A stretch of DNA of 64,000 bases, taken from Cliona cf. orientalis (taxonomy: Eukaryota > Porifera > Demospongiae > Clionaida > Clionaidae). The position numbers and the translations under genes were made by a program. Positions 4,910-49,636 of this stretch are shown piece by piece. The DNA is taken from assembly GCA_963930775.1 (NCBI GenBank), contig OZ005689.1:1922001-1986000 (forward strand), written 5' to 3'. The number at the start of each line of letters is the position of its first letter. Within the stretch, counting starts at the first letter, position 1. Below the pieces are notes generated by a model. That model saw nothing but the letters and a program-made list of their open reading frames with translations, was not told the DNA's origin and did no database searches.

Positions 4910-7900
4910 ATGGCTACAGGTCCTGATCAAGAAATAACTCCGGAAGAGAGGAGAGAATGGGGGAGGATTATTGCCACAGCTCTGCGGGATAATTACGTAC
5001 AGTTGATAAAAACCATCGATGTGCAAGAAGCTGCACATTGCCTTTTTGAAGCATGGATCGTAACAGATAACGAACATGAAATGGCTGTCACCACCGGATA
5101 TGAAAGTTCACAGACCAGAGCTGGCAAATTGATTGCGATATTGATTAAGAGAGTGGAGGCCAATCCACACCAATTTAAGGCAGTTTGTCAAGCCTTAGAG
5201 CAGGCAGGAGCAGAGTCAATTATTGATGAAATAAAAGGTATACACAATAAATTTTGAGAGTAGAAGGTTCAGTAAGCTTTATGATTTTTTTTAATAGCTG
5301 AAGTACAAAGAAAGAAAACATCGTCATCAAAGGGTAACATATTCAATATAATATGTGTGTACCGGGTATGTAGATCTAGCCCTGACCTGAATCTTCAGAG
5401 ATGGTGCAGTAGTAGCTACAGGTTTCCCCAATTCCCAAACCTAAGGAGCAACCATCCTATTATTGCCTGCTCAAATCCCAGCAAAGCTAGGGCAGAGCCA
5501 CTTGAAAACTAGGGGTGGTAAATAAGGCGTGATCAATACTTTTGCATGCAATGGCTTCTACATAAAATTCTTGATCTCTAGCTTATACTGGCAGTGGATG
5601 TTGATAATGAGCATTATTAAGAATGGTGTTAATATTATACAGCCACATCTGAAGGGAGTGGTGAGCAGCTCAAAATGCAGTGTGTGGGTGGATCTGATCA
5701 TTCCCCGCCACAATCTTCGGAGCTGCCCGGATGTTTTACCGAGACTGAGTTGGTGAGCTATATACATTATTATACTATAGGTATAGAGATAACATGAGTA
5801 CCGTAAATCTGGAAATTTTCGTTGTAAAAATATTTTCGTAGTCGATGGCGGCTACGAAACTTAATCTTACGAAAATTAGCATGCACTATTAACGCTAATG
5901 CGGTAAGGGGTCGTTCCTACGAAAATTTTTTTACACGAAAATTTATCATACGAAAGTTTCTTGACACGAAAATTTCCAGATCTACAGTATGTAAAATTTA
6001 ATATTGCCTCAATATGTTGTTAACTAACTGGTAGCAAACCTTCATGATCATCAGTGCAGCAGTATAATACATCCAAAATCCATCTAATCCATCTAATTAG
6101 ATGGATTTTGGATGTACTATACTGGGTAAGCGCCCATGAGCGCTTAAACAATAATTCACGATTTTGGGCTGCATGGGTGCTTATCCGGGATCAAAATTTC
6201 ATACGCTTGTATAGAAGCTGCTACAGTGGCCCTGGTGAAGGGGGGTGGCTAGCCACCTTATCCATCCCCCCCTCCCCCCCCCCCCCCCCCCCCCGGATCA
6301 GCCCCTGAATTGTAGACCGATTCCCAAACTTCCACCCATTATCATATGATTATTATTTGCAGAACATAGCTCCAAGTCCTCTTCACATTATCTGTGGTGC
6401 AATTCCAAAGGTAAGGATTGCTAGCTCAGATTCACATGACAGTGTAATAATGATAATATTGTAATATCTGCCATCATAATATCATGCTTGTAGGATACGA
6501 ACGAGGTCACTAGAAAGAAAAGAAAGGATGACCTGGCTGAGCTACAACGGCAACTAAATGAAGGTGCAAATTGTGGATGCAAAGATGAAGTAGGTCCCTG
6601 CTTCCAGTCCTTATGCAGTACCATATGCAAATGCATAGTAATGAGCATGGTCACGGTGTCACTGTTTAAGTTGTAAAACCACATCACTCACTCAAGATAA
6701 GCTGTGTAGTACAGTACAGCATAACATATAAGGGGCATCCCCAGCTTCCACCATCAAGGAGAGAAATCTGACGAACTTTGGCTGAATATTCAGTTCTTGT
6801 TCTCGACGAGGCCATGCAAAGCTTGGATCTGATTGGTCTATGCGTGTGCATGCAATTGCAATCGGCAGTTAAGAAAACCTTGGACCTGATTGATCAGTAC
6901 ACTAGCATAGCTTATATGGCTAGCTATAAGGCCAAACAAACTTAATTACTAGTTTCTCAGGCTTTCAAATTTCAAAACCCATGCGGGAGGCGGCTTTTTA
7001 TTTTATTTTTTAATGAAAAATGGGCGTGGCGATAATGGCCACGCCCATTTTCGCTAGTGCTGCACGTGGTGGATACACAAGCTAGTGCTGAAATGCAAGT
7101 ATTGAAGTTCAACCAGAGAGAATATCTAGCCTAACAATCAAGTTTAGCTTTCTATTTAGTAGAGAAAAGTTTCATCAGTTGTACTAACCTTGCAAGATGA
7201 CAAGATTTAGCCTGCAACAGATGACGTCATCATCTTTGAAGAAAATAGCTAGCTAGCTGCTGGCTAAATACCACTTTCACGGGGACTTCAGTTGTGAGAT
7301 GTCAACCAAACAGTCTCGAGATGCCAGAAAACAGTTAGTTTCATGAACTCTTTACCGTGTATATTCCAATTTTTGTCTGTTAATTAAATTAATTAGCACG
7401 TGACTGCTCACGTGAGAAATAAATAAAAAAGTCTTGCTTTCTCAAAATTTGATGCGGGCGGGCCTGAGAAACTATTAATTAACTTTGCTTGGCCTAACTA
7501 CAGCAAGTATAGTGATGTTGCATTCCTAGGCTTGTCATGTGACTGAAGCAGAGCTGCGATCTCATTCCTCAGTGCAGGCCATTTTCCTCTTTGCAATTGG
7601 AGGTGGGGTCTGGGTAGCCCCCCTCCCCCACCCCACCCCAGGCACCTCGATCTTTTCAACACACATGAGACTAAACTAGGGGACTGATAAAGAAATTCAA
7701 AATGGGTATGTAATTTTCACACACACTTGCAGGATGGCAACACACCTCTACACATTGCTACCAGCAGGGGAGATACTGAAGTGGTCTGTATTATCTTAAG
7801 TCATATCCAGCGCAACGGTCCAGTGGATGTTATCAATTATCGAAACAATGTAAGTCAGCCAGCTGCATGCATAGTAAAGTACTGTCATAATAATGCTGTA

Positions 7901-9791
7901 AAAGTGCATTCTCTCGCCAAATGATTTTTTGTTGGATGCTGCTTTAATTTGTTGTACCTAATTTCTTCTAAGATAATATAGTAATTACCCCGTGCTCATG
8001 TGCAAGGGGTAAAGTAGCCAGTTTTGTCTGTCGTTGTCTGTTGCTAGGACAAAAATCGCCAGATCTGGAGATCTAGGCATCTGAGCAACTCATAAATACA
8101 GCGTATCCATCAAAATCACCAATAAACTGGCTTCAGTATACTTTGAATCGTTTGGCAAGGCCCACAAGCATCGCAAATACTGCATTTTGTTGGTCAGCCT
8201 ATGGACACTACCCACTATTATGTGCTTTCTACTCATGTGCACAACCTGGCACAATATGTAGGTAAAGGTCGTCAACAGGCTGCTCGCATCATCGAGCTCT
8301 AGCTCTGACTATAGACACAAGGGCGGAGAACAGTTAGCCAAAGTGGGGGGGCTCAGACCTTTGACTGTGTACTGTGACAACCGTAAGGCTGTGGGCATAT
8401 GCCCACAGCCATCTAGGGGGATCTGGGGGCATGCTCCCCCAGAAAATTTTGGAAATTTCGACTGTCTGAGAGCGTTTCTGATGCAATCTGGCACCAGTTT
8501 TTGGACTGATTTTAGTAGCAATTTTTACTTTAGCACTCTTTGCAAACACCTAGAATTATGACAGAACTATGTTTCTATAATTTTGTAGTATGGGCAGGTG
8601 ATAAAATGGGGGGGCTCAGCCCCCTTTGTTTCCAAAGTGGGGGGGCTGAAGCCCCCCTGCCCCCCCTATTTCTCCGCCCCTGAGACATGGTCTGAGTTTT
8701 CAATGTCACGCAGCACGCAAGAAGGAGGGAGGGCCTGGTATCTAAAGTCATGTGTGTGATGTATCATGTAGAGAGACTAGGCCACTAGAGTGCAGCAAAA
8801 GTCGCTGAGATTTGAAGGGCTCTCGTTTCCAATGATCGAGAGGTATGGCCCAAACGCTTAATATTGCTGAGTGTAGCACGATCCTTTTAGTTCACAAACG
8901 AGTGGGGATCGAGCTGCTCGTATAGAAATTTAGCTCAGAACGGTAGCTTTGTTTTGTGGCCATTTGTTTTTGGTTTTAATGTGTACAACAATCGACATCA
9001 CGCACGTGAATTTAGCTAAGTGCTATCCACATCTATTACAACATATGTAGGAATTCCAGACCGTGTTACACATCAGTACAATGAACAACTTTCCCGGAGT
9101 GACATCCTTAGTGTGTGAGCAAATGAGCTGTACTTTTAACATGTCTGATAAGGTTAGCAATAATTACAATGATAAGATAATTATCATGAAAATTATTATG
9201 CTCTATTACTTTTAGGCAATGAGAACCCCTCTGCATTATGCTTGTTCTTCAGGCGTATTAGATTCAGTGAAGCCATTACTAAAGTGTTGCAGCAACGAAA
9301 GGTTTGTGAACGCAACTGACGAGAATGGGGACACTGCTCTACATCTTGCCACACGGAGTGGCTTCACAGAAATCATGAAGCTGCTACGAAAGAACAAAGC
9401 TGATCTTAAAATAACAAACCATGTAAGTATTATAATATTATAATCTACAAATTTTGATGCTAGTGCTGCATTCTTAGTCGGTAGAGGTGACTAACTACCA
9501 TTCAGGTGTATAAATGTTCTATACATGCAGGATAACAAATCGCCGATTGATATTGCACATGATTGTTTACCGTGGCACCCAAAACCATACAAAGTTTTAA
9601 CCAAACCAAAGTACGGTCGCATTTCACTGCCTTGGCCTAAGAGGAATGCCAGCAAAATGAGAAATAGCTCCAGCTCTTCTGGGATTTCCTCACGTAGATC
9701 TGAGTCTACAAACTCTGTCAGCTCATTTGCCTCAAAATCTTCTACATGTTCAGAAATTGCTAGATATAGCTCCAAGAGTAAAAAGACTTAA
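4910..9791 (+). CDS. CARD-coiled-coil-ankyrin protein, copy A (9 exons, 434 aa)
   Basis: Exons by splice signals and frame continuity: 4910-5237, 5298-5333, 5643-5752, 6363-6410, 6494-6589, 7733-7849, 9051-9152, 9216-9422, 9531-9791. They join without a stop to 434 codons. Residues about 25-107 fit a CARD (pattern AWIVTDNEHE, then RAGKLIAILIKRV). Residues 175-206 are basic and coiled-coil-like. Residues 207-360 hold ankyrin repeats (DGNTPLHIA, TPLHYACSSG, NGDTALHLATRSG). The tail is Ser-rich. Repeat order and spacing recall the IkB/Bcl-3 type, which would suggest a cytoplasmic adaptor or inhibitor; that is inference. The start is uncertain: copy B has no ATG there, and the CTACAG just inside could be an acceptor for an unseen upstream exon. 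It lies directly 5' of a type I receptor gene. Confidence 0.78.
5799..5989. mobile_element. MITE, TA-CCGTAAATCTGG family, in intron 3 of CARD-ANK A
   Basis: The ends TA-CCGTAAATCTGGAAATTTTC and CCAGATCTACAG-TA are inverted, 191 bp in total. The interior repeats ACGAAAATTT in both orientations, like the 812 element. A decayed relative, lacking clear ends, seems present near 2380-2520. Confidence 0.7.
6070..6115. repeat. Short hairpin, CATCCAAAATCCATCTA arms
   Basis: ACATCCAAAATCCATCTA and its inverse TAGATGGATTTTGGATGT are separated by only a few bases. It sits in an intron of CARD-ANK A. A lone arm-like word, GGATTTTGGATGCA, recurs at 35525. Confidence 0.5.
6950..7474. mobile_element. TIR element, TAGTTTCTCAGGC ends, in intron of CARD-ANK A
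   Basis: TAGTTTCTCAGGC at 6950 pairs with GCCTGAGAAACTA at 7474. Both flanks carry TTAATTA, consistent with a 7-8 bp target duplication (hAT-like). Copy B lacks it at the matching position (near 36655), so it inserted after the gene duplication or was lost there. The interior has a hairpin around TGGGCGTGGC. No transposase. Confidence 0.65.
7986..8300. mobile_element. Repeat of the ACCCCGCGC...GCATGCGCAAGGGGTAA family, truncated
   Basis: It starts TACCCCGTGCTCATGTGCAA and follows the 56588-56953 copy (words ATCGCCAGATCTGGAGATCT and GGTCGTCAACAGGCTGC) but ends before the usual terminal GCGCGGGGTATGTGCTC. It lies in an intron of CARD-ANK A. Confidence 0.6.
8319..8682. mobile_element. hAT-like MITE, CARGGGCGGAGAA ends
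   Basis: CAAGGGCGGAGAA at 8319 pairs with TTCTCCGCCCCTG at 8682. AGACA flanks both sides, suggesting a partial target duplication. The interior has a GGGCATATGCCC palindrome and short G tracts. The same family is at 46164-46562, inside a type II receptor intron. Confidence 0.65.
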
Positions 9792-10363: not shown

Positions 10364-11999
10364 ATGATCGCCAGATTAGTGTACTATCAGTCACAATATA
10401 TTATAGCTATAGCTACTATGGCTCTTACAGCTGGTGTATATTTTCTCCTGGTAGTGGCATGCAACGGTACAAAAATAGCAGTAACTAGCTATAAATAATT
10501 TAATGGTGAGCAATAGCCTGTTTATGATTTCTACAGCTGCAACTATCACAACAAATATCAATGGTGAGGCTTGCCGAGGAGAAACATGGATTCTAAATTG
10601 TACAGGTCGTAGCCCTACCCATCGATGGATACTGGAAACAGAAGGCAGTCATGATCAGCCTACAATGAAGAGCTATACAAGTGGAAGTATGCCAGGAACT
10701 AGTCATATGGGACCATACAATTTTACGTTTGTATCAGTACCTAATGATCGGTTTGAATCAATCGTTTCAGCAGTACTTACACCAGTACTGAATAATACAG
10801 TGGCTAAATGTGTTGACATTCAATCTGAAGCTGAAGTCACTATAAGACTAACAGGTCCAATAGTTTATCATATTATTATGCACTAAAATTACAATAATAA
10901 TGCTGCCACATGCATGTATGCCACAGTATTATTAATCCTTACAGCACCACCTCCACCTCCTCAAGCACTAAGAAGTAGATTATTGGAATCTGACACTCAG
11001 TCTAATCATTCGACAGTTGAAGTAACATGGGAACCACCAAGTAATGATACAAGGGTGGATTTCTATCACTTCAAAGTTGTTGCTGAGTCAGAGGGAACAA
11101 ACGGCACATTGTATACTGTCGAAACACCAAACACTACCGTTATAGTTTCAATTTTTCCTTACAATGTCAACATAACACTCTTTCTCTCTGCCACAGACAA
11201 CTGTGGAACAAGAAGTGTTCCGGCAGTTCTTTTTGTAAATTACATTGGCTCAGGTATAAGCTTTAATAATAATAATTGTTATTGACGCATGCATGCTCCT
11301 ACAATGTCATAGTATAGGCAGAAGGAAGCTTAAGAGCATTAAGTCTTGGGGGGAGGGGGTGCTATAACGGTTGGTCATCAAACTTTTTCCCAGCAAGATC
11401 ATAGTGACCAGAAAACTAAATTATGGGGCCCAAACTTGATTTTAATTAATGTTGGGAGGGCTTAGCCCCAAAGCCCTAAGTATGCATGGCTATAATATTA
11501 TGTGGACCTATATTATAGCTTATGATCTGACTATATACTAAATCTTATTGTAGATATGGTAGATCTAGATGTATTGGATCCGGATACTGTGACACCAACA
11601 AGTAACTTTGACACGATTAAACCATCTGATCCGATCGTAATTATTATGCCATCATCGGCTACAAAATTTAGCACTAGCACATCGATACCACCACAAAAGA
11701 AGTCACAAACTCTTCTTATTTCCATTTCTACGCTCTGTGGAGTTATTATTTTGTCCCTTGTGTTGATAATCATGTGCTTAGCCATGGCCTTGAAGCACAT
11801 TGTGCGATCTGAGTCTCGGACACTTTCGGCTACATGTTCGTCTGATTCTATTAATGTGTATGCTGAACTAGAGTCCAGTTTCCCCCACGAGAGTGATGCT
11901 GTTGAAGGGGATAGTCAGCTCAGTGCTCCAAACGAATCTCAAGATGAGCAAGATGTTCCTGGACCAGGAGTTTATGAAAGAATATCAATATTATTATAA
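10364..11999 (+). CDS. Type I receptor, copy 1: signal peptide, Ig-like, FN3, TM, Tyr tail (4 exons, 391 aa)
   Basis: Exons 10364-10466, 10537-10854, 10945-11253 and 11554-11999 join cleanly, with every intron in phase 1. Residues 1-34 form a hydrophobic leader. Exon 2 is one Ig-like domain (ACRGETWILNCTG, W, later KCVD). Exon 3 is one FN3-like domain (VEVTWEPPSND, YNVNITLFLSATD). Residues about 296-323 are transmembrane. The tail has VYAEL (Tyr 346) and VYERI (Tyr 384), YxxL/I motifs of the kind SH2 domains or adaptor complexes bind. Several NxS/T sites suit a surface glycoprotein. It is followed 0.5 kb on by a type II receptor. The ligand is unknown. The Ig assignment is by pattern and could be another beta-sandwich. 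Confidence 0.82.
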
Positions 12000-12525: not shown

Positions 12526-13782
12526 ATGCCTTCAAGACGTCTACATAGGTGGCTACTACTCTTCTACGCCACATTTCTTGAGCATACAAGTGAATCTGCC
12601 GTGATTTCTCCGAATTGTGGAAGAGGTAAGATGGGCAGGGAGGGACTGGCTAGCCATATTATTTATTATCGATTTTATTTATTTGTGTATACTTAGACAT
12701 CGATGAACATCAGGCTAGGAGATGTTACAATCTGGCTAATCGAACTGATCTGGCCCCACCACCACTCCCAGTCGTGCTTGAGTCAACCGTCACTGAAAAT
12801 GGATTCATCTGTAAAGATAAGTCCATTTTATACAGTTTTTCTTGTAAGGCCCATGCCTCGGACATGGTCTGGTACATCAATAATGAAATAGTGACAGCTT
12901 TTCTACCATTTGATACTGTCGGTACCATATTCCGGAGTTCCTATCCAGCCTTAGCACCCATCTATAGCATCACAACAATACTCACGGAACAAACTTCAAT
13001 GTCATTCGGAGGATATCGGCTCCCAGTTGTGTCGTCCACTTTAACCATACAATCGTTCAATGAAAGTCAGAATGAAGTGATTTCCTTCACAGTATCTTGC
13101 CAAGCCCATTGTGAAGATGAAAGTTACACTGAAGTGTGCCAAAGCAGACAAATGAATGTTGCAGGTTGGTATTATACGTTCTTATTAGCATACCATTATC
13201 AATTAAAATTTATTGCATGATTACAAGTTAATTAATTTGATAAATGCAGCTAAACCCATGAAGCCAAGCAACATTTATGGCAGCATCCAAATTATTGACA
13301 ATATTTCCCTTTCATTATTAAATTGGAACTCGCCACCAAATCAGAACGAAACTGATATTAGTTTTTATGATATAAGTCTATCAAGAAACCACAGTGATGA
13401 ATCAAATGGCACTGGCACTAGCTTAAAGTCAATCCATGTGGCTGCATCGAGGCAAACACTGTCATACAAGTACGTAGTGTCAAACAGTGGAAACTCTACC
13501 CAAGCAAGTATTACAGCTGTTGATTTCTGTGGACAAAGAAGTGAAGCATCTGAATTTCAGCTCAATGACATGCTAGTAACAGATGGTAACATCACTGACA
13601 CAGAATTAAACGATCATCATCAGCAAACCATCAATATCCTTGCTGGTGTACTCGCACTTGCTTTTGCAATAATTATTGCACTACTTATAGTTTTCATTCC
13701 TGTCATGATATACCAATGTATTGTGATCCAACGAGAAGCTGAAAAATATAGACACAGTTACACAATGAATAATCTAGTATAG
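12526..13782 (+). CDS. Type II receptor, copy 1: signal peptide, Ig-like, FN3, TM, short tail (3 exons, 366 aa)
   Basis: Exons 12526-12625, 12697-13164 and 13250-13782 join in frame with both introns in phase 1. Residues 1-25 are a leader. Exon 2 encodes a Cys-rich Ig-like domain (FICK, FSCKAHASDMVWY, FTVSCQAHC, EVCQSR). Exon 3 encodes an FN3-like domain (LLNWNSPPNQNETD, ITAVDFCGQRSEASEF) fused in the same exon to a transmembrane segment (about residues 318-347) and a tail of about 20 residues. The tail has no YxxL pair, unlike type I. It would act as a surface receptor or ligand, perhaps pairing with type I, but that is inference. The 5' flank shares GGGTGTGGCTATAAT with copy 2. Confidence 0.82.
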
Positions 13783-14746
13783 ACTAAGTATGATAATGTA
13801 TATAGTTTCTAATCATACATGTATCCTAAGACTGTATTCAGACTTAGTCTTTTGTGATTAATTATTTTTATATAGCTAATGGTACAATAAACTTACTAAT
13901 ATTATCATTATCATTGTATACGTTATATAGTTACACACCCTACTAGTGCACGAGCGTATGCAGTAACCACATACGGCACAAGGGTGAAGCCTGATGGCTG
14001 TATAATAATATTATGGTTACACACATGTCTCGTGTAAGTATTCCATAGAAGGGCTGGGGTGATTTGTAATAGCACTACATGCATGTGTGCTTGTTAGTAG
14101 TTGCCTAGCAGCCAAAGTTTTTATAGGCAATTTGCCGGCTATGGGAAGGGGTTGGGTCATCATAAAGTAGGCCAATGATGAACAGAGCTCGAGGTCAACT
14201 ACCAACAAAAATTAATTATCAGCCAGTAGCATTGTATCTGTACTGTAGAATAATTATTCTGTCATTAGTTACCTAGGTAACATCTAACAAATAATATTAT
14301 GTAAGTATAGCGATGTCTGACTCAGCAAATATATTAGTGTAGCATGATGACTGGGCAGTCAAGAATGGCTGACTCATTATATTTACTATGGCATTGCTAT
14401 GATAAAGCAAGATTATAATTATTATGTGTGCATGATGCTGCATGCTATAGTTATGTATACTCACATGTAGCTTCAATGGGATTCTGTGTCATTAAATTTT
14501 GGCCGAACGGACTTTGAAACATTCCATGCATGCATGCACAAGTAATAATAATATTATTATTATAGCTATTTAATAATTCAATAATATAGTCCCAGAGGAA
14601 TTAATTATGCAACCTCACCACCTCTATGAATAATTTTAAACTTATTAAATTCATTGTGCATAAATCAGCTAGTGTGCAGATAATAACGTCAACATGCAGC
14701 CAGCATTCTATCAATAACTATTCTCATTATTAATTATCCTCCATGT
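13783..14746. other. 3' flank of type II copy 1, no gene seen
   Basis: AT-rich. Bases about 13900-14000 (CACATACGGCACAAGGGTGAAGCCTG and nearby) recur downstream of type II copy 4 at 47390-47470, marking the duplicated block. Nothing else was recognised. Confidence 0.5.
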
Positions 14747-14900
14747 ACTCATAAAAAATACAGCACCACCGTTGCTCTTCCTGATGCCTTTTCTCTTTTT
14801 CTTCTCTGTGTCTTATCTCGGCATCAAATTTAAGTACAACTCTCCTCCTTGTGGCTTCTTCTTCTCTACATCTTCTCTCTTCGGGGCAATACAAGACAGA
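14747..14900 (-). pseudogene. Relic of CaaX kinase 3' end
   Basis: The reverse strand matches the last 40-50 codons of the kinase at 48528-49684: a Glu/Arg-rich helix followed by a WCCI-F ending equivalent to WCWIL there. The catalytic domain is absent. Its place after a type II receptor and its strand match the position of the complete kinase in the other module, so a kinase once stood here. Confidence 0.55.
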
Positions 14901-15600
14901 CAGTGCCTCCGCTTACGATGAATTTCCGTCTAATTCAAATTCTTTCAGATTCCCTACATACAGCTAATACATAAATTTGAATTGGTCTTTTCTCTTAATT
15001 AGAAAAATTACAGCCAGCCTTAGCATACAAAAGTACACATATTTATATAAATATAGAACATAGATCACATGGAGATCACTATAATCCTCCTTGAGATGTG
15101 AAACTATAAGTATCTATTACCTAAATCACTCTCAGAACAATTCTAAAGCTTCATATATGGCTGAATGCTCCACTAATTAATAAGCATTGCAAGGTCTCAA
15201 TACAGTAGTTTATATGGATCTCTGTAATTCAAATTTTCATTAATTTTAATTCAAATATTTTTCATGGATTTTGAGATTCGATTTAAGTGGACTACACTGT
15301 ATAACATACAAGACAGTGGCTGCCATGTTGACATAGGAATTTAATTAGCTAAGAGAGGGAAAGGCCCTGGGAATCTCCCCACTTTGAACTTTAGTTGCAG
15401 CTATATAGCTTATGAATATTCTCCAATATACAGAGGAACATCAGTATTATAGTCTCATTGATAAACAGGTTCATGTTAGTGTACACAGTGACACCGTGGG
15501 CAACATGCTCAATATAAAAGAATAGGTACCCAGTAAAAAGGTAAACAATGCCTTGTAAGCAATCCTTATGCTATGAATATTAGCTATGTATCAAGCGTAG
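14901..15600. other. Residual kinase 5'-flank sequence, no gene
   Basis: Bases 15535-15600 (GGTAAACAATGCCTTGTAAGC) match the region upstream of the kinase at about 49793-49860. Bases 15354-15390 (CCCTGGGAATCTCCCCACTT) match 49737-49775 inverted. This supports deletion and rearrangement of a kinase copy. The rest is AT-rich with no exon seen. Confidence 0.45.
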
Positions 15601-15990: not shown

Positions 15991-16487
15991 TATAAACAAT
16001 GCATAGATATGTGAGCTGATAATACTGCAACAACACACTGCTCATACAGATAGACTTTACATTAATGCCAGCAAAAGATATATGCTTAAGTGAGCTATAG
16101 CTATGTAGGCTGATCTTTGACCCCAAGATTCCCTTTAGGAAGACATACATACCATAAACTCATCGGGCACATTGATATTAGCTAATTTCAAGTTTGCAAA
16201 CGCAGCAATGATCCGACTTGCTGTAGCCAAATAAATTCATGATTGCATAAAATGTAATACCTGAGTCAGAATTTACTTGTCGCGGCGTCAGAGGGAAGGG
16301 ATTTGTATAAGTAGCTACGAGGTGTTCTATAGTTTTGTCCCATGGGAATGGTCTATGAGCAAGGCTGGACCGGAGTCAGGGGCTGACCCAGCGGGGTGGA
16401 TGCGGTGGCCAGGCTAGCCACCCCCGCTTCGATCATGTAACAAGTGCCTGACTGACTCTGTGTATTCTGTATATTAACTGAATCAAT

Positions 16488-17090
16488 ATGGAGTCTTCAG
16501 CTGCGAGAGAAAAAAAACTCCAACGTAGAAGAGAAAGGGAGCGAGCTCATCGAGCAGCTGAAACTGCAGCTGAAAAAGAAGAAAGGTTAAGAAAATGTAG
16601 AAAGAGAGACCAGGAAAGGAGAGCTGCAGAAACACAAGAACAGAGACAGACAAGGCTTCAGAGAAAGCGCTCTAGGCAGAGCGAAAGTTTTTCATCAGAA
16701 ACTGAAGAACAGCGAGGGATCAGATTGATTAGATTAAGTAATAACCAAAGGGAGAGATTGGCAAGAGAGTCTCAGGACGAGTGTGATGCCAGACTGGACA
16801 GAACGAGCGCAAATCGAAGGGAGAGATTGGCGAGAGAATCTCAAGACGAGCGTGACACCAGACTGGACAGAATGAGCACAAATCAAAGGGAGAGATTGGT
16901 AAGAGAATCTGACAATAAAAAAATTCTAAATGCATACTTAGCTATGCTTACATACGTTAACACAAATTGCGAATGCTTATACTGCTGTGTAGGTGTACAA
17001 CTGTTACTTGAGATAAGTAACTACTTTACAATTCTTCATCATCACACTAAATACACTCACTATAGGAACATATGCACAATCATAATATGA
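16488..17090 (+). CDS. STPR-repeat (23-residue) protein fragment
   Basis: The first 145 codons are highly charged and helical, with at least three near-exact 23-residue units of the form NQRERLARESQDE-D-RLDR, spaced exactly 23 residues. This fits the score-and-three (STPR) repeat known from FMBP-1-like DNA-binding proteins and, in many invertebrates, from the N-terminus of Helitron-type proteins. After residue 145 the repeats stop and the remaining 55 codons look like read-through of non-coding sequence. It may be a first exon or a transposon-derived scrap; no helicase was found nearby. Confidence 0.5.
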   Translation: MESSAAREKKLQRRRERERAHRAAETAAEKEERLRKCRKRDQERRAAETQEQRQTRLQRKRSRQSESFSSETEEQRGIRLIRLSNNQRERLARESQDECDARLDRTSANRRERLARESQDERDTRLDRMSTNQRERLVRESDNKKILNAYLAMLTYVNTNCECLYCCVGVQLLLEISNYFTILHHHTKYTHYRNICTIII

Positions 17091-19350: not shown

Positions 19351-19361
19351 TTTTTCTACCA

Positions 19362-20090
19362 GGAGCGCATAATTGAAAAAAAGGGAAGGGGGAGGGAGCG
19401 TGAAACGACCACGCATTTGATTAAAATCCCAGTTTTTACCCACGCTAGTCGTGTTACTAAATTTAGCGCGTTTATTTTAAGACGAAGGCAGAGAAGCTTG
19501 GAGTTTCGACTTGTACAGCCAGATGACAAGGCTTTGGGAGCCTTCCCGTGGATCTGAGATCGTGTCGAAGCTTACCGAAGGTCCAAAGAACAGACTTGAA
19601 GCTTTTTGTGGAGTATTGAGATCGTCTGTAAGTTGTTCTAGCCGTGCCGGGCTCAGCCATTCGCGTCGATCGGCCAGAAACGATGCTTGATGATCAATTC
19701 TAGTAGCTTTGATGACTCTAAGCTCTCTTTCAAGGGAGCCAAGGGTCGAGGCTATGCTAGAAGAACGATCAAGTATCCGATCGACGCGAATGGCTGAACC
19801 GGCGCGGCTAGAACAACTTACAGACGATCTCAAGACTCCACAAAAAGCTTCAAGTCTGTTCTTTGGACCTTCCGTAAGCTTCGACACGATCTCAGATCCA
19901 CGGGAAGGCTCCCAAAGCCTTGTCATCTGGCTGTACAAGTCGAAACTCCAAGCTTCTCTGCCTTCGTCTTAAAATAAACGCGCTAAATTTAGTAACACGA
20001 CTAGCGTGGGTAAAAACTGGGATTTTAATCAAATGCGTGGTCGTTTCACGCTCCCTCCCCCTTCCCTTTTTTTCAATTATGCGCTCCTGT
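19362..20090. mobile_element. Large foldback with ~315 bp near-identical arms
   Basis: Bases 19362-19675 are repeated inverted at about 19775-20090, nearly identical (for example AGACGAAGGCAGAGAAGCTT and its inverse), around a centre of about 100 bp. Because of the palindrome, both strands carry the same open frame of 87-153 codons ending in QASLPSS. That symmetry explains the frames better than a gene does. Flanks carry the TTTCTACTTAGTGT word of the neighbouring array. Confidence 0.7.
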
Positions 20091-32366: not shown

Positions 32367-32392
32367 TTATTAATTAATTTTAATCAATGCAG

Positions 32393-33804: not shown

Positions 33805-34569
33805 TACAGGTCCTGATCAAGAAATAACTCCAGAAGAGTGGAGAGAATGGGGAAGGAGCTCTGCAGTATTACTATGTACAGCTAATGAACACAATAGATG
33901 TGCAAGTAGCTGCACCTCACCTTTTTGGAGCACAGATGGTAACTGACAACGAACGTGACATGGCTATCACCACCGGACTTGAAAGCTTACGGGCCAGAGC
34001 TGGCAAATTGATTGCAACATTAATTAAGAGAGTGGAGGTCAGTCCACACAAGTTTAAAGAAGTTTGTGAAGCCTTTCAGCAAGCAGGAGCAGAATCTATT
34101 ATTGATGAAATAAAAGGTACTAATTTTGAGAGTAGAAGGTTGTTCAGTAAGCTTTATGATACTTTTTAATAGCTAAAGTACAAAGAAAGAAAACGTTGTC
34201 ATCAAAGGACAAAAAATTGATTCAGAATACATGTGCACACGTAGATCTAGTCCTGACCTGAAACTTTGGGGATGGTGCAGTATTACAAATTTATCTTCTA
34301 CTGCCAATCCCAAAACTAAGGAGCAACCATCCTATTGCCTGCTGAAATCCCAGGTGCTAGCCTTGAAAACTAGGGGTGGTAAACAAGGCATGATTTGACC
34401 ACTCCCAGTAATACTGTATAAACTTTCTGAGGCTAAATAGGATGAAATAATTATAATACACAAAATTAGCTAGTAATGATGTGACATTATTACTATTCTT
34501 TCTTTACAGCCTGGATATCACGGACAATATCTAAGGAAGCTAGTACTTACACAAACGCAGCGTGAGTCT

Positions 34570-34788
<219 letters not shown>

Positions 34789-35427
34789 CATATTGGCATA
34801 CACGTCCTAGTGAATACACACACAGTCATATTCACTAATAATATTATCATAATTAGTACATTTATGTGCATGGCTTCTACATAAAACTAAACGTTTGATC
34901 TCTTATACATGGATGTTGACAATGAGTATTATACTAAGAATGGTGCAATTAATACAGCCACATCTGAAGGGAGTGGTGAGGAACTCGAAATGCAGCATGT
35001 GGGTGGATCTTATCATTCCCCTTCACAATCTTTGGAGCTGCCCGGATGTTTCACCGGGACCAAGCCGGTGAGCTGAAGTTACTGTATGTACAAGATTACC
35101 TCAATATGTTGTTGACTAATAATGTAGCAAAACTTCATGGTCATCTTTAAGGGTGTAGCTATAGCTAGGATCAAATTAAATTTTTAGTGAGGTAGTTAGG
35201 ATACCTGGGCCTGCACGAAAAATTTGGGCCACGCCCATTTTGTATAAACCATGCCCATTTTTGCGTTAATGCAATAGCCGACGGCCACGGTACATTGCAT
35301 TGTTTCAACCACTTTCTTGGAGAAATGCCAATTGTAGCTGAGTTTCTCAACCATCTTCTACAGTTACTAGGCTATAATAATTTTAACATTGGAATGTAAG
35401 TTACTCTGCTCACTTCAAGACTTCATA

Positions 35428-35514
35428 TGAGGCAGCTGCCTCAGTTGCCTCTATGATTGCATAGAGGCAACTGAGGCAGGCATAGCTACCGTATGGTAGC
35501 TATGCCTCTGATCT
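35428..35514. repeat. Twin hairpins in intron of CARD-ANK B
   Basis: GCCTCAGTTGCCTCTATG and its inverse, then GGCATAGCTACC-GTA-TGGTAGCTATGCC directly after. No corresponding sequence in copy A. Confidence 0.6.
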
Positions 35515-35916
35515 CAAGTTAGACGGATTTTGGATGCATATAATAATATTATTATACATGTAGCTTTCCAAACTTCCACCCACTAACATGATTATTATTA
35601 ATTTTGCAGAACATAGCTCCAAGTCCTCTTCATGCACATTATCTGTGGTGCAATTCCAAAGGTAAAGATTGCTAGCTCAGATTCACATGACAGTGTAATA
35701 ATGATAATATTGTAAGATCTGCCATCATATCATGTTTGTAGGATACGAATGAGGCTACTAAAACGAAAAGAAAGGATGACCTGGCTGAGCTACAACGACA
35801 GCTAAAAGAAGGTGCAAATTGCAGATGCAAAGATGAAGTAGGTTCCTGGCATGTGCGAGCACCTAAAATGCTTCTGGTCTCACTCATGCATTACATACCA
35901 TTGTACTATTCTATAT

Positions 35917-36316
35917 ACTGTTCGAATAGAAGCTGCACCCTGATTAGTAGCCGACCTCGAGTAGTAGCTGCACGTGGTACTCTGCGAAAGAAATAGTAGC
36001 CACCCTCGAATAGTAGCCACACACATGCGCGAACATAATTGAGTGGGCATGGCCATGATTGTAAGCCACGAACGCTCGTTAGTTTGGGGCAAAAATATGG
36101 CAGAAAACGTACCTGGCTTGGTTCTGCTGCTTAATTTTATCAATCATGAAGTTTGAATATCCATTCTGAAAAATAAGTCTACCGTGTCAATGTTACCAAA
36201 ATTTAATGGTGTCACTTCAAAATAATAAAAGCCATCCTTGAATAAGAGCCGCCCTCGATTAGTAGCCACACTCCAGCAAAGGCTAGTAGCTGTGGCTAGT
36301 ATTTGAATAAATACGG
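35917..36316. mobile_element. MITE, TA-CYGTATTYATTCRAATA family
   Basis: Left end TA-CTGTTCGAATAGAAGC, right end inverse TA-CCGTATTTATTCAAATAC, 400 bp with internal TCGAATAGTAGCC words in both halves. Absent at the equivalent position (6590-6625) of copy A. Confidence 0.65.
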
Positions 36317-38031
36317 TATGTACTGCCTGGTGTGCAAATGCATAGTAATGAGTGTGGTGGTATCACTGGTCAAGTTGTAAAACCACATCACCCACTCGAG
36401 ACAAGCTGTGGTGCTTGTTAGAGTGCCTGTTACCAGCATATGCATTTATAGGGGGCTAGTCTTGTCCCCAAGCTCCCACCCTCAAAGAGAGAAAGAGTCT
36501 GTAAAGAACTTTGGCCGAATGTTTAGTCGACAAGGCCATGTAATGCTTGGGTCTGATTGGTCTATAATATTATGACTGTGTGTGCATGTGATTATAATCG
36601 ACAGTTAAACCTTATTGGTCAGTACACTAGTATAGCTAGTTTATACAGCTAGCTATACTATAGTTGCATTCCTAAGGCTTGTCATGTGACTGAGCCAGAG
36701 CTGCAATCTCATTGGCATATGGAAATTCCTCAGCAAAGGCCAGACTGAGTTTCCTCCTTGCAGTTGAAGGAGGGATCTGGGCATGCGACTAAATTAGGGG
36801 GCTGGTAAAGGAAATCAATTTAAAATGAGTATATAATTTTTACGCACACTTGCAGGATGGCAACACACCTCTTCACATCACTGCCAGCAGGGGAGATACT
36901 GAAGTGGTTAGTATTATCTTATGTCATATCCAGCGCAACGGTCCAGTGGATGTTATCAATGATCAAAACAATGTAAGTCGGCCAGCTGCATGGTAGCCAT
37001 AGGGTACCATCACAACAATGCTGTAAAAAGCATCCTCTTACCAAATGATTTTCTATTGGGTGTTGCTTTATTGTGCCAAACCTCTAGCCCTAAATTTATG
37101 TTGAAAAGCTGGGAGGTTCTGGGGACAAGGCTATTTAATTATTACAATAGATGTAGTGTGCAGGGTATGTGCTCTATAGAGCTCTTTAGACTAGTTAAAA
37201 TTTGCGGGCGGGGGGGGGGGGGGGGGGGGGGGGGGTGGGGGCAATGTCATACTAGGTGCATGTGTGGAGATTGATTACCAATTATTTTAGCCAGAACAGT
37301 TTACCAGTTTCGCCACCTGCTCTCATTGGTGAAAATCATATCACATTATTTTTTTGTCCCATGTTAAAGAGGATATGGTAGCCTATACCACATTGTCGAA
37401 AAATTTTCCCACTAAGTTAAATTTTCAAGTATACAGGACGGCTTCTTCAGCTATTACAGTAACTATCCACATCTAAATGTATGTAGGAATTCCAGACTGT
37501 GTTACACATAAGTACAACGAACAACTTTCCTGGAGTGACAGCCTTAGTGTGTGAGCAAATGAGCTGTACTCCTAACATGTCTGATAAGGTTAGCAATAGT
37601 AACATAATATGATAATAAAATTAATACTATGCTCTATATAATCAAACTTTAGGCGATGAGGACCCCTCTGCATTATGCTTGTTCTTCAGGTGTATTAGAT
37701 TCAGTGAAGCCATTACTAAAGTGCTGTAACTATGAAGGATTTGTGAACGCAATTGATGAGAATGGGGACACATGCAGCTCTACATCTTGCCACACAGAAT
37801 GGCTTCACAGAAATTATGAAGCTGCTACGAAAGAACAAAGCTGATGTTAAAATAACAAACCACGTAAGTATTATCATAGAGTCGGTAGACTCTATAAGTA
37901 GGGATAATAATAATATAATAGGGCCATGCATGCATGTATGATCAAATCTTGCTAGTGTGATTGTGCATGCAATAGTATATTCTACAAGTTTTGATACTAA
38001 ATTAAATGCTGCATTCTTAGTTGGGTAACTA

Positions 38032-38623
38032 TACCATATTGCCTCTAATTTAACGGACATCTCTAATTATCCGGACACCATTTCGAATTTTTTTTTTGCC
38101 TCTAATTACGAACTATCCTGCAGCTGTTTTCAAACCCTTCCATACAAAACCCTATACCAAACCCAAACCCCGCCCCTTCACGTGACCAATTTTAGCTGAT
38201 TTGACCAATTAGAAGCGACCTTTGAAATGAGCTGCGATATTATACCTAATTACACCGGACAGTCAATAAAGTTTGAAATTTTGTTGTTCTAATTATTATT
38301 TGGACATCGTTGTTCTAATGTGGACAGCTTGCGCTAACTGCTCGAGCAAAATTTGCAATGGACAGCTGCTTCTTTGGTGGTACTGAAGGAGGCGAGTTGT
38401 TCTCTTTCCCACCATGAACAGGGAGCTCCAGATACCGTCTCATTTTCTCAATCTCTGCAGCTGCTTGATCGCACGTCCATTTGACCGAATTCGCATGCGT
38501 GAAAGTATGTTCTAATTCATCGGACATTTCGAATGCTAACTATTTTCGTGTGCTCTAATTATAGTGGACATTGGCCAAAATAATTATTTTTCTGGTGTCC
38601 GTTAAATTAGAGGTAATACAGTA
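38032..38623. mobile_element. Tc1/pogo-like TIR element in CARD-ANK B intron
   Basis: TA-CCATATTGCCTCTAATTT at left, inverse TAAATTAGAGGTAATACAG-TA at right, TIR about 25 bp including CTCTAATTTAACGGACA. Copy A reads through the site (9477-9510) without it. A 70-codon reverse frame at 38315-38527 (DQAAAEIEKMRRYLELP) might be a scrap of a transposase tail but is unassigned. Confidence 0.75.
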
Positions 38624-38912
38624 ACTACCATTCAATTATTTATGTTCTATGTACATGCAGGATAACAAATCACCAATTGATATTGCACACAATTGTTTAC
38701 TGTGGCACCCAAAACCATATAAAGTTTTAACCAAATCAAAGTATGGTTGCTTTTCATTCAAGAGGAATCCCATCAAAATGAGAAACAGCTTCAGTTCTTC
38801 TGGGATTTTCTCGCGCAGATCCGAGTCTACAAACTCTGTCAGCTCATTTGCCTCGAAATCTTCAACATGTTCAGAAATTGCCAGATATAGCTCCAAAAAT
38901 AAAAAGACTTAG

Positions 38913-40230: not shown

Positions 40231-41252
40231 ATGATCACCAGATTAGTGTGTTATCATATCAGTCACAATATAGCTATAGCTACTATGGCTCTTACAGCTG
40301 GTGTATATTTTCTCCTGGTAGTGGCAATAATCCCATGCAACGGTACAAAATAGCAGTAACTAGCTGTAAATTTAATGGTGAGTAATAGCCTATTATGACT
40401 AATTTTCTACAGCTGCAACTATCACAACAAATATCAAAGGTGAGGCTTGCCAAGGAGAAACATGGATTCTCAATTGTACAGGTCATAGCTATACCCATCG
40501 ATGGACACTTGAAACAGAAGGCAGTCATGATCAGCCTACAATGAAGAGCTATACAAGTGGAAGTATGCCAGGAACTAGTATTAAGGGACCATACAATTTT
40601 ACGTTTGTATCAGTACCTAATGATTGGTTTGAATCAATCGTTTCAACAGTACTTACACCAGTACTGAATAATACAGTGGCCAGATGTGTTGATACTCAAT
40701 CTGAAGCTGAAATCACCATCAGAATAGCAGGTTCAATATTAATATTACTGTTAATAGTATGACATCATTATTACCTTATTACAGCTACTGCATGCATAAT
40801 TACTATGATAATAATTTATTTAATTTTCAGTGGCTATGTATACGATCTGAATCCATCACAATAATAATCATTTAATATCCTTACAGCACCCCCTTCACCA
40901 CCTAAAGCACTAAATTGAGTAGAGTATTGGAATCTGACACTAATTATTCCACAGTTGAAGTGACATGGGAACCACTGGGTAACGATTCAAGGTATCACTT
41001 TGAGGCTGTTGCTAACTCAGACGGAATAAGCTACACATTGTATGCTGTCGAAACACCAAACACTACAGTCATACTTTCAATCTTTCCCTACAATATCAAC
41101 ATAACAGTCTTTCTCTCTGCCACAGACAGCTGTGGAACGAGAAGTGTTCCGGCAGTTCATTTTATGAATTACATTGGCTCAAGTAAGCTGAACTGATGCA
41201 TGCTCCTAAATGATATAGGCAGATAAAGCTTAAGGGTGTTTAGTTGTTTTTT

Positions 41253-41283
<31 letters not shown>

Positions 41284-41891
41284 GCTAACAATTTGCCAAG
41301 GTTATCAATTTTTTCCCAGCAAGAAAGTGACCAGAAAGCTAGCTTAAATTGGTAGGGCTTTAGTCCAAAAGCCCTACGTAAGGGTTCCTCCACCTATTAT
41401 GTGGACCTATAGCTTATAATCTGACTATATTATAATATACTTACTGTAGATAGGATAGATGTATTGGATCCGGATACTGACAGTGTGACACCAACTAACT
41501 ATGACACAATAAACCATCTGATTCGATTGTAATTCCATCATCAGCTACAAAATTCAATTCCCATAGCAGCACATCGATACCACCACAAAAGAAGTCACAA
41601 ACTTTACTTATCTCTATTTCAACACTCAGCGGAACTATTATTTTGTCCCTTGTATTGATAATCATATGCTTAGCCATGACATTGAAGCAGATTGTACATG
41701 TGCGATCTGAGTCTTAGACACTATCAGCTACATGTTCATCTGATTCTGTTAATTTTTATGCTGAACTAGAGTCCAATTTTGCTCACGATAGAAATTCTGT
41801 TGAAGGGGAAAGTCAGTTCAGTGCTCCAAATGAATCTGAAGATGAACAAGATGCTTCCGGAGCTAGCACTTATGAAATAATATCAATATAA
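40231..41891 (+). pseudogene. Type I receptor, copy 3, multiply broken
   Basis: Exons equivalent to copy 1: 40231-40342 (leader, intact), 40413-40730 (Ig-like, intact), about 40890-41182 (FN3) and about 41451-41891 (TM-tail). The FN3 exon gains two bases after KAL and meets a stop at once. The TM-tail exon loses one base near 41508 (TIKP region) and has a stop in place of the Arg after RSES. Tail motifs FYAEL and TYEII are still readable, showing that the two YxxL/I sites are conserved between copies. A G tract of 30 lies in the last intron. With the intact first two exons it could still make a secreted Ig-only protein. Confidence 0.75.
41255..41284. repeat. Poly-G tract, 30 bases
   Basis: Uninterrupted G run in the intron before the TM-tail exon of type I copy 3; copy 1 has only GGGGGGAGGGGG there (11350). 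Confidence 0.9.
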
Positions 41892-45124: not shown

Positions 45125-45183
45125 CTACTCCCCAGGCCACTCCCACATTGTAAACGTGGGAGTGGCCTGGGGCGTACTAGGCT
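45125..45183. repeat. Hairpin just upstream of type II copy 4
   Basis: CCCCAGGCCACTCCCAC and its inverse GTGGGAGTGGCCTGGGG around ATTGTAAAC. Same family as 12313-12404. It lies 33 bp before the ATG and so probably in the promoter or 5' UTR. Confidence 0.65.
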
Positions 45184-45215
45184 AAAGCTCCCTGGAAGAG
45201 CTATTGACTCTAAAT

Positions 45216-46457
45216 ATGCCTTCAAGTAGGTTACTACAACTTGAAGTGCTACTCTTCTATTTGCTCACTATCGTAGTTCTTGAACGTACAAGTGAATCCG
45301 CTGTGACTTCTCCGAGTTGTGGAAGAGGTACTAGTATTGATATGAGTCACCAGCTATAATACACATAGCGGCTAACTTTATGATGACGCGACGTATTATA
45401 CTATCTGTATATATATAGTGTAAGGCTTCAGTGAGGAATGTTATTTTATCATTACATACACTCAGACATTGATGATGAACATCAGGCTAGGAGATGTTAC
45501 AATCTGGCTAATAGAACTGATCTGGCCCCACTACCACTCCCAGTTGTGCTTGAATCAAGCTGTGAAAATGGATTCATTTGTAAAAATATATCATCCACTT
45601 TATACGGTTTTTCTTGTAAGGCCTATGCCTCGGATATGGTCTGGTACATCAATAATGAAATAATGACCGCTTTTCTACCATTTGACACTGTTGGTACCAT
45701 ATTCCAGAGTTCCTATCCGGCCTTATCACCCGTGTATAGCATCACAACAATACTCACGGAACAAACTTCAATGTCATTCGGAGGATATTTGCTTCCATTT
45801 TTGACGTCCACTTTAATGGTTCAACCATTCAATCGGAGCCAAACTGAAGCCATTTCCTTCACAGTATCTTGCCAAGCTCATTGTGAAGAAGAAAATCACA
45901 CTGAAGTGTGCCAAAGCAGACAAGTGAATGTTGCAGGTTGGTATACATTCTTAGTTATAGTTAGACTATAGCCTTGAGTGGTTTATTTGAATTCAAATAA
46001 ATCACGATAAGGCTTATAGTCTAAGTGGCTTGTACTATGACCGCCAACCGTGGTATATGGAAGTTATGCCACGGCTCTATGCCCATAGTAAATACAAGTG
46101 TTATCTGCCAGCTGTGGTATATATGGCAGCTATACCATGGCTGTGGTTACTCTACAGTTTGCACAGTGGGCAGACAGTGGTTTTACATTGCGGGGGCTCA
46201 GACCTTTGACTATGTACTATGGCAACTGTTTGGCTGTGGGCATATGCCCACAGCCCACCTAGGGGGGTCTGACGGCATGCTCCCCCAGAAAATTTTGGAA
46301 ATTTTGACTCTCTGAGAGCGTTTCTGATGCATTCTGGCAGCAGTTTTTGGACCGATGTAGTAGCAAATTTTACTTGAGTACTCTTTGCAAACATCTATTA
46401 GTAGAATTATGACAGAACATGTTGCTGTACTATTGTAGTATGGGCATGTGATAAAAT

Positions 46458-46494
<37 letters not shown>

Positions 46495-47197
46495 CTCAGC
46501 CCTCCTTGTTTCCAAAGTGGGGGGGCTGAAGCCCCCCCTGCCCCCCCTATTTCTCCGCCCCTGCTACAGGCGGTACCTTTGATCTTTACTCTAGTCATAG
46601 TACAATTTAATAATATAGCATACCATTATCAGTTTATTGCATGACTATTATACAAGCTACTAATTATTAATCAATGCAGCTAAGCCCATGAAGCCAAGTA
46701 ACGTTTATGGCGGCATCCATATTGACAATAATGTTTCTCTTTCGTTATTAAATTGGGATTCGCCACAAAATCAGAATGAAAGTGATATTAGATTTTATGA
46801 TGTAAGTCTATTAAGAAACCACAGTGATGATGACATGTCAATCCATGTGCACGTGGCTGCATCCAAGCAAACACTATCATATAAGTATGCAGTGTCAAAC
46901 AGTGGAGACTATACCAGAGCAAGAATTATAGCTGTTGATTTCTGTGGACAAAGAAGTGAAGCTTCTGAGTTTCAGCTCATGCATATGGCAGTAACAGATT
47001 GTAATAATATCACTGACACAGAACCAAATGATCGTTATCAGCAAACCATTGATATCCTCGCTGGTGTTCTCGCAGTTGCTATTGCAATAATTATTGCACT
47101 ACTTATAATTTTCATTCCTGTCATGATATACCAATGTATTGTGAACCGACAACAGGCTAGACGCAGTTACACTGTGACAATGAGTAATGTAGTATAG
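45216..47197 (+). CDS. Type II receptor, copy 4 (3 exons, 366 aa)
   Basis: Exons 45216-45327, 45466-45936 and 46680-47197 join in frame (366 aa), introns in phase 1. The leader holds VLLFYLLTIVVL. The Ig-like exon keeps FICK, FSCKAYASDMVWY, FTVSCQAHC and EVCQSR. The FN3 exon keeps LLNWDSPQNQNESD and DFCGQRSEASEF. TM ILAGVLAVAIAIIIALLI, tail about 20 residues ending TMSNVV, much like copy 1 (TMNNLV). Intron 2 is swollen to 743 bp by a hAT-like MITE with a 37-base G tract; in copy 1 it is 85 bp. The kinase follows 1.3 kb downstream on the other strand. Confidence 0.82.
46164..46562. mobile_element. hAT-like MITE in receptor intron, with 37-base G tract
   Basis: Same family as 8319-8682 (shared CTCAGACCTTTGACT, GGGCATATGCCCACAGCC, and the end TTTCTCCGCCCCTG). 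G run 46458-46494, where the other copy has seven G. The left end is less clear than the right. Confidence 0.65.
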
Positions 47198-48527: not shown

Positions 48528-49636
48528 TCACAAAATCCAGCACCAAGATTTCTGTGCTTCTTCTCTGCGTCTTCTCTCAGCTTCAAGTCTCCTCTTGGCT
48601 TCTTCTTCTTCTCTGTGTTTTCTCTCAGCTTCTTCCCTTCTCTGTTTCTCAATACTTGTTAGCTTCTCCAAAACTTCACTTGCTGTGGGTCGATCATGAT
48701 AGTCATACTGTAGCATACTATCAAATAGTTCCCGCTCATCTGATGGGCAATGCATTGCATTCATCAGTGATGTTGATTTCTGATTGAGATATCTAGCCTG
48801 CCCACGAAATCTAGATGTGTGCAGAAAGCGGCCAAGATAATGTTCTTCATTTTCCTTATATACAATGGGCAACAATTTTGCACCAGTCCGCCGAGGATTA
48901 TATGGAAGCTCACAGATCACGAACATCACCAAACCCATAGAAAATACATCACTGCTTTCGTTGTAACGTTCATTGAAGACTTCTGGAGCCATATAAGGCT
49001 CAGTACCAATCACTGTTTCCATGTACTTCTGGTAAGATCCTTGGGGTTGTTGGTGATCATATAGGATCTTTGCAATTCCGACATCAGCTACTTTCAGTTG
49101 GCCATCACCTCCTATAAGGATATTCTCTGGTTTTAAATCCCTGTGTGCAATCTTCTCATGAATGAATACTAAAGCGGATGCAAGCTGCTTGAACCATGAA
49201 AGACGTCCTTCCTCACTATAGTGCGCTCACCTCGGACTGCAAGCCCCTCAAGATGTTTTTGATGGTCTCCTCCTGGACAGTATTCCATCACTATAGCCAA
49301 GCCAGATTTGAAGGCAGATTTTCTGAATTTAAAATGGTCTCGAATAGCAGTAATGTTTTCGTGCTGAAGATCTGTTAGTATGAGCACTTCCTTTCTTCCT
49401 TGCTTAATGGAAGCGGAAGTCTTGAAGAACAAGATTTGTTCAATTACTGATTTCTTGGCTTTTATAATTTTAACAGCCACATCTTCATCTGTTGACTTGT
49501 CAGTAGCTTTTAGCACACTACCAAAACTTCCTTCTCCAAGTACAGCTTTGTAAGCATAACGTCCACTATTTGTGGCTCGATTATTTGCCTTGCTCACTTT
49601 TTTTGAACTTTTGGCATCGCTGATCACAGTACTCAT
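48528..49636 (-). CDS. Ser/Thr protein kinase with CaaX-type C-terminus, copy 1 (one frameshift)
   Basis: Reverse strand, no introns. N-lobe: glycine loop LGEGSFGSVLKA, VAVKII lysine; then EYCPGGD. A 2-base gain near 49218 (CACTATAGTGAG versus CACTACTGAG in copy 2) shifts the frame. The next frame continues with HRDLKPENILIGG, ADVGIAK (DVG where DFG is usual), TEPYMAPEVF and SSDVFSMGLVM, then a Glu/Arg-rich coil and the end SWCWIL. CWIL fits a CaaX geranylgeranylation signal, so membrane anchoring is likely. I start at Met 49636, aligned with copy 2; the frame is open to 49684. It is a pseudogene unless the frameshift is an assembly error. It sits behind a type II receptor, convergent with it. 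Confidence 0.75.

Follow-up and report, generated by a model that had tools for sequence, protein, structure and literature searches.

The 64,000-nucleotide stretch of the Cliona cf. orientalis genome analyzed here (the window; C1:1922001–1986000, in an assembly of 216.8 Mb and 149 contigs, of which C1 is OZ005689.1) carries several copies of two receptor gene types, RI and RII, together with copies of a CARD-ankyrin gene (CARD-ANK) and of a kinase gene. We favor, as rather probable, the reading that a birth-and-death gene cluster keeps the RI–RII receptor pair, and that CARD-ANK and the kinase are passengers, which have mostly decayed. RI and RII stay linked and likely form a receptor unit; the pair probably serves in recognition, and we infer an immune or self/non-self role for it. 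Gene models were made by aligning the window copies and translating them, and matches were obtained with tblastn and by self-comparison.

The linkage of RI and RII extends well beyond the window. The RI query gave 32 matches in the genome, all within C1:1.932–2.329 Mb or on contig C18, and the RII query gave 37, comprising 33 in C1:1.934–2.325 Mb, three on C18 and one weak match on C11; a query with the C18 RII returned 16 matches (15 on C1 and one on C18). RI and RII share the region C1:1.93–2.33 Mb (approximately 0.4 Mb) and C18, and RII matches are confined to these two contigs, the weak C11 match excepted. To tabulate pairs, exon matches were merged into genes and orientation was taken from the nearest partner; an RI piece at C18:6.0246 Mb, found later, is left out of the table. 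The nearest RII was head-to-head for 12 of the 15 RI genes outside the window (two tandem, one convergent), and the nearest RI was divergent for 11 of the 14 RII genes outside it (two convergent, one tandem); for RI, the gaps between matched exons are 0.7–14.5 kb. The pairs that were read whole (RI/RII) agree with the table:

C1:2.034/2.036 Mb
C1:2.055/2.057 Mb
C1:2.167/2.169 Mb
C1:2.328/2.324 Mb
C18:6.018/6.016 Mb

Since the outside pairs are mostly head-to-head, one intergenic region could drive both genes. The Ig (immunoglobulin)-exon distances of seven pairs correlate between RI and RII (r 0.74; 64 of 5040 label permutations were as high), a value driven in part by window copies A, B and C, which are close to one another. 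A decayed piece of RI at the far end of the cluster (C1:2291429–2291593) belongs to the window type: it is 52% identical to window copy A over residues 139–189 and 76% over residues 139–163, which suggests that copies have moved within the cluster.

More distant relatives were found for RI. A distant RI Ig query returned 40 matches, 13 on C1, five on C18 and 22, at 24–38% identity, on C11, C13, C2 and C16, which places RI in a wider V-set-like family. The RII Ig-exon query gave no match on C11, C13, C2 or C16 beside these RI-like V-set exons. Nine V-set-like Ig exons grouped at C11:8849392–8886733 share 24–34% identity with an RI Ig exon and have no RII match nearby; elsewhere on C11, weak matches to RII (2721527, E 0.005) and to RI (2711766) lie approximately 10 kb apart.

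The two receptor types differ in layout. RI consists of signal, Ig, FN3-like and transmembrane (TM)/tail exons, the ectodomain introns being in phase 1, whereas in RII the signal and Ig exons are followed by a single exon that encodes an FN3-like part together with the TM helix and a short tail. The receptor copies in the window are as follows:

10418–11999, + strand: RI copy A, open (alignment; AlphaFold; fold match); signal exon, V-set-like Ig exon 10536–10847, FN3-like exon 10938–11252, TM/tail exon 11554–11999 with two YxxPhi motifs
26012–27788, − strand: RI copy C, inverted and open; it has a signal exon of its own and a different, longer tail with several tyrosines (alignment)
30976–31308, + strand: RI copy D, Ig-exon relic with internal stops (alignment, genome query)
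40285–41890, + strand: RI copy B, pseudogene; the FN3 exon changes frame and the TM/tail exon contains an in-frame stop
50329–50829, − strand: isolated RI-type cytoplasmic tail, 77–81% identical to the RI tails at C1:2.034 and 2.055 Mb
12526–13782, + strand: RII copy A, open (alignment; AlphaFold; fold match); signal exon ~12526–12625, V-set-like exon 12696–13166, FN3-like/TM exon 13246–13782, short tail
22321–23636, + strand: RII copy C, open, tail shorter than in A and B (alignment)
32389–32803, + strand: RII copy D, FN3-exon relic, frame broken (alignment)
45216–47197, + strand: RII copy B, open, with a longer second intron than copies A and C (alignment)

A preliminary description of this DNA had named these genes Ig/FN3 receptors, and the Ig half of that name holds. 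AlphaFold predicts a V-set-like Ig domain in RI (predicted local distance difference test score, pLDDT, 85.9) and in RII (pLDDT 84.5), with matches at the level of the fold, and the first domains of both have the features of an immunoglobulin superfamily (IgSF) V-set domain, namely an Ig beta-sandwich, cysteines in the B and F strands and a tryptophan in the C strand. FN3 never rose above the curated Pfam cut-off, and we use “FN3-like” as a working name; Pfam searches of the receptor ectodomains gave no match save a sub-threshold FN3 in RI. A recent paralogous origin of RI and RII was rejected, since comparing the profiles of their Ig exons gave nothing and the FN3-like exons showed only a faint similarity (E 0.001, probability 21%).

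The cytoplasmic tails of RI carry tyrosine motifs, and the RII tails in the window are short. Twin YxxPhi motifs were present in 7 of the 10 RI tails read, including the isolated tail in the window, with spacings of 7, 7, 7, 8, 8, 8 and 11 residues; in the tail with a spacing of 11, the second motif ends in V. The tails of RI copies A and C have YxxPhi motifs without a close twin pair, and that of the RI at 2.034 Mb is unreadable. In an immunoreceptor tyrosine-based activation motif (ITAM; YxxL/I-x6-8-YxxL/I), the tyrosines are 10–12 residues apart. The RI tails are not standard ITAMs, because this spacing fits one tail only, and signaling through a strict ITAM was therefore rejected. The twin motifs would suit recruitment of SH2 proteins.

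Related receptors also occur in protein databases (ENA, JGI). Ten further RI exons were found at 67–74% identity (12 matches, two of them the window’s own) and 26 further RII exons at 46–95% (27 matches, one the window’s own); three of the further RII exons are on a contig as long as the window’s own. Judged by these matches, the receptor family is present and varied in other samples, and the variants may be alleles, paralogues or genes of other species. For both P0132 (RI) and P0135 (RII), the longest JGI contig listed is 4,428 bp; if this is one shared contig, it would be an independent linkage of RI and RII.

On these observations we propose the following model. A birth-and-death cluster of approximately 0.4 Mb on C1, with a smaller group on C18, would maintain RI and RII, copy decay being part of this process, and in each divergent pair a single intergenic region would drive both genes. 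The products would make up a two-chain or paired receptor that recognizes self/non-self or microbes: RI would be the signaling chain, its YxxPhi tyrosines being phosphorylated and SH2 proteins recruited, and RII, whose tails in the window are short, would act as its partner or as a decoy. The window itself would lie at the edge of the cluster, in a rearranged part; a block there, which by chance included a CARD-ankyrin gene and a kinase gene, would have been duplicated and then largely decayed. A bolder version, which we put forward as speculative and unlikely, is that RI and RII encode a heterodimeric V-set receptor, with a long-tailed signaling chain and a short-tailed chain from head-to-head genes, and that the cluster is possibly the long-sought sponge allorecognition locus. 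Graft rejection in sponges has long been known, and to our knowledge there is no agreed receptor. If the pairs prove to be co-expressed and polymorphic, they would provide named, mappable candidates for self/non-self recognition in sponges, and would show that clustered V-set receptors of two distinct partner chains arose outside vertebrates. The exact coordinates of the cluster make linkage to fusion/rejection and allelic diversity directly testable.

The preliminary description reported repeated collinear blocks, and DNA self-comparison bears this out: the 4.9–14.0-kb region is collinear with the 33.8–47.5-kb region (main pieces 76–90% identical), and the 22–33-kb region holds partial copies of the block, one of them inverted. 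It was also correct that at 4.9–15.6 kb the kinase is a relic (CARD-ANK, RI and RII are open there, and the kinase consists of short flank matches) and that the set at 22–33 kb is partial (RII C and RI C are open, kinase relic C is present, and the pieces at 30.9–32.9 kb are broken). The set at 33.8–49.7 kb had been described as full. It is not, because three of its four genes (CARD-ANK, RI and the kinase) are broken and RII alone is open, which rules out a complete four-gene unit there. No copy in the window holds a complete open set of all four gene types. The frame breaks could partly be assembly errors. The CARD-ANK and kinase copies in the window are as follows:

4910–9788, + strand: CARD-ANK copy A, open (tblastn, alignment with copy B, Pfam)
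4910–5239, + strand: CARD-like exon of copy A; linker exon at ~5640–5740
~6363–6410, 6494–6590, 7733–7855, 9057–9150 and 9216–9428, + strand: ankyrin exons of copy A
~9530–9788, + strand: last exon of copy A, Ser-rich tail
33800–38909, + strand: CARD-ANK copy B, pseudogene (tblastn, alignment with copy A)
29142–29466, strand not assigned: fragments of the last CARD-ANK exon (self-comparison, alignment)
48531–49636, − strand: kinase K1, CaaX-type end CWIL, one frame change within the domain (Pfam, alignment)
53935–54946, − strand: kinase K2, CaaX-type end CCIS, one frame change within the domain (Pfam, alignment)
14684–15403, strand not assigned: kinase relic A, flank matches at 14684–14879 and, inverted, 15348–15403 (E 1e-11 to 1e-4)
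24771–25061, − strand: kinase relic C, frame broken, with stops inside (self-comparison, alignment)

In CARD-ANK copy B, the start codon of copy A is lost, the CARD exon has an 11-bp gap, and exons 3 and 7 have frame changes; a long CT/GA simple repeat (34544–34838) lies within the region of this copy. As a gene type, CARD-ANK is confirmed in its ankyrin repeats, which are clear (Pfam Ank_2 E 1.4e-24), but not in its CARD, which is weak in copy A (Pfam E 0.003–0.004; CARD_2 17.9 bits vs a cut-off of 28.2, CARD 17.6 vs 23.9); copy B gave no match to the Pfam CARD profiles. Two CARD-ANK paralogues on contig C12 matched Pfam CARD_2 with E 0.02–0.03. Across the genome, at least 49 Pfam CARD matches were found, none inside the window. 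The CARD profile compared with PDB had MDA5 as its top match (E 0.02), without a single significant stretch, and unrelated proteins followed from E 0.055. CARD-ANK was therefore rejected as a certain CARD protein, all of its Pfam CARD matches being under the cut-off. The protein database search with CARD-ANK returned ankyrin-repeat proteins among the best 120 of 183 matches; these are generic, IkB-epsilon being one of many. An IkB inhibitor would need an ankyrin domain that binds NF-kB and a phospho-degron.

The C12 paralogues form two adjacent CARD-ankyrin genes (C12:8183900–8194547), relatives of the window gene without a receptor match beside them. Of the six matches to the CARD-exon query in the genome, three belong to the window copies and two lie on C12 (at 36% and 30% identity); the sixth is a broken piece at C1:2363338, and none is beside the receptor pairs at C1:2.03–2.33 Mb or C18. 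The ankyrin query, for which 150 of 1329 candidates were scored, added among those matches an exon at C1:2377443 (71%) and the ankyrin exons of the C12 genes (49%). Searches of C12 with the RI and RII queries gave no match, and the C12 stretch, read whole, contained CARD-ANK exons but matched neither the receptors nor the kinase.

The identification of a CaaX kinase is sound for the domain (Pfam kinase E 4e-37) and for the ends CWIL and CCIS, but both copies are frame-broken. Catalytic motifs are visible in K1 and K2, with DVG replacing DFG; an active kinase requires an open frame with the Lys, the HRD Asp and a DFG-type Asp, and both copies lose the frame within the domain. No catalytic body was found at relic A (14684–15403). 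The kinase protein query of the genome (120 of 955 candidates scored, E ≤ 1e-10) gave at least 32 matches, four of them pieces of K1 and K2 and the other 28 at 27–40% identity, none of which is on C1. With the kinase DNA as query, four matches came up, and all of them are on C1, namely K1, K2, relic C and a fragment at C1:2052781–2052924. This fragment of approximately 0.15 kb, near the 2.055/2.057-Mb pair, is the sole kinase trace beside an outside receptor pair, and neither query, within the protein candidates scored, found a close kinase relative outside the RI/RII cluster. Taken together, the claim that four gene types have been kept together is supported for RI and RII, which occur together on C1 and C18, but not for the kinase, whose close copies were all found within the cluster and are frame-broken or fragmentary, nor for CARD-ANK, which also occurs on C12, where no receptor match was found.

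Several observations weigh against our reading. Inside the window, three RI–RII pairs are tandem and one is convergent, so that none of the four is divergent. Outside it, some divergent neighbors are 7–15 kb apart, too far for a simple shared promoter, and because the C1 pairs are mutual duplicates, the 12 of 15 do not count as independent events; the relic at 2.291 Mb, itself among the 12, has the same partner as the RI at 2.293 Mb. The outside pairs also include damaged genes: the Ig exon of the RII at 2.057 Mb is frame-changed, the RI at 2.034 Mb carries a stop in the tail and an Ig exon that was matched in part only, and the RII at 2.169 Mb has one broken FN3 exon, another at 2.173 Mb being open. 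As for the folds, the five RI models range in pLDDT from 53.6 to 85.9, the receptor models were built on 22 and 31 sequences, and the Foldseek E-values exceed 0.001. FN3 in RI is below the cut-off (copy A, E 0.0011, 19.6 bits vs 25; 5 of 12 members with E < 0.01) and was undetected by Pfam in RII (0 of 6). The ratio of nonsynonymous to synonymous substitution rates (dN/dS) of receptor copies was below 1 in all comparisons made (0.27–0.73; in the window, 0.59–0.73 for RI and 0.36–0.61 for RII; 0.27–0.64 for RI elsewhere), and positive selection over whole exons was rejected on these values. Finally, a broken CARD piece (C1:2.363 Mb) and an ankyrin exon (C1:2.377 Mb) lie just past the cluster and a kinase fragment (C1:2.053 Mb) inside it, so a looser association of the four genes may exist.

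How far could these points carry another explanation? The preliminary description had suggested that CARD-ANK, RI, RII and the kinase act as a single signaling unit. The close kinase pieces, all inside the RI/RII cluster (four DNA matches and the flank relics), and CARD-ANK sequence at both cluster edges (the window; C1:2.363 and 2.377 Mb) agree with such a module; we nevertheless consider it quite improbable, as the window has no complete open set, both kinase copies are frame-broken, the two CARD-ANK genes on C12 have no RI or RII match there, and no CARD match occurs by the pairs at C1:2.03–2.33 Mb or C18. One could rescue it by attributing the lesions of copy B and of the kinases to misassembly and supposing that an intact four-gene module exists. 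One small frame change per kinase copy would fit, but at least four separate lesions in CARD-ANK B, at least two in RI B, and the plain decay of relics A, C and D make this very improbable.

Neutral linkage of duplicated neighbors, in which not even RI and RII would be functionally tied, has a real chance of being correct, although we doubt it. Drift should scramble gene order, as has happened inside the window, whereas divergent order prevails outside it, and the pair is found on two chromosomes, its subfamilies sharing little identity. Pointing toward neutrality are the window blocks, which are local duplications with decay, the RI-like V-set exons on C11, C13, C2 and C16 (22 of 40 matches) without an RII Ig exon, and the broken member in some outside pairs. 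It is also unlikely that RI and RII are ordinary adhesion or developmental IgSF proteins, as opposed to immune or allorecognition receptors. Ig/FN3 transmembrane proteins are common adhesion molecules, and dN/dS below 1 is in line with that; however, the cluster has many unequal copies, pseudogenes and differing tails, a pattern more usual for recognition families, and metagenome contigs carry many more variants.

The receptor pair resembles several known systems in part. Vertebrate FcR-like paired immune receptors comprise activating and inhibitory members; as in these, a long-tailed member with tyrosine motifs stands beside a short-tailed one in a single cluster with rapid turnover, but the Ig exons of RI and RII are not profile-related and the similarity of their FN3 exons is faint. 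Plants have head-to-head gene pairs of nucleotide-binding leucine-rich repeat (NLR) immune receptors, which are cytosolic proteins. Adjacent genes for two different receptors, possibly co-expressed, are common to both systems, but RI and RII are membrane Ig receptors and the likeness goes no further than analogy. RI and RII are candidate recognition molecules, as are sponge aggregation factors, which belong to another class of molecule, and the known sponge immune receptors. The layout of the cluster is like that of the Hydractinia Alr complex, a family of clustered single-pass IgSF receptors with low mutual identity and V-set domains, whose IgSF membership was confirmed by AlphaFold, and which has many pseudogenes and a few clusters in one region (PMC11067881, PMC11999971). 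Clustering, pseudogenes and the V-set-like fold are shared with RI/RII. Unlike in Alr, there are two profile-unrelated chains here, mostly in divergent pairs, and the second domain is FN3-like, an I-set Ig domain not being seen; moreover, Alr has been genetically linked to fusion/rejection, and such a link to allorecognition is not known for the RI/RII cluster. Putative cytokine receptors of Halichondria include Ig and FN3 domains, according to the accessible part of that report (PMC8242945). No paired V-set/FN3 receptor cluster was found in the accessible text of PMC5450542 or PMC8242945, and that of the former, an Amphimedon graft study, does not mention immunoglobulin, Ig domain or receptor. 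A literature search covering titles, abstract openings and open-licence papers found no description of such a cluster.

Other features of the window are as follows:

16485–17087: open reading frame (ORF) with STPR repeats (Pfam STPRs E 2.2e-15), in the GC-richer 16–22-kb region between copies A and C
55908–62001: several repeat units of 78–93% identity with short repeated ORFs, one of which was tested and had no Pfam match
51865–52580: tandem duplication of approximately 360 bp, 90% identical
19360–20089: near-perfect inverted repeat of approximately 730 bp, 92% identity, perhaps part of a mobile element

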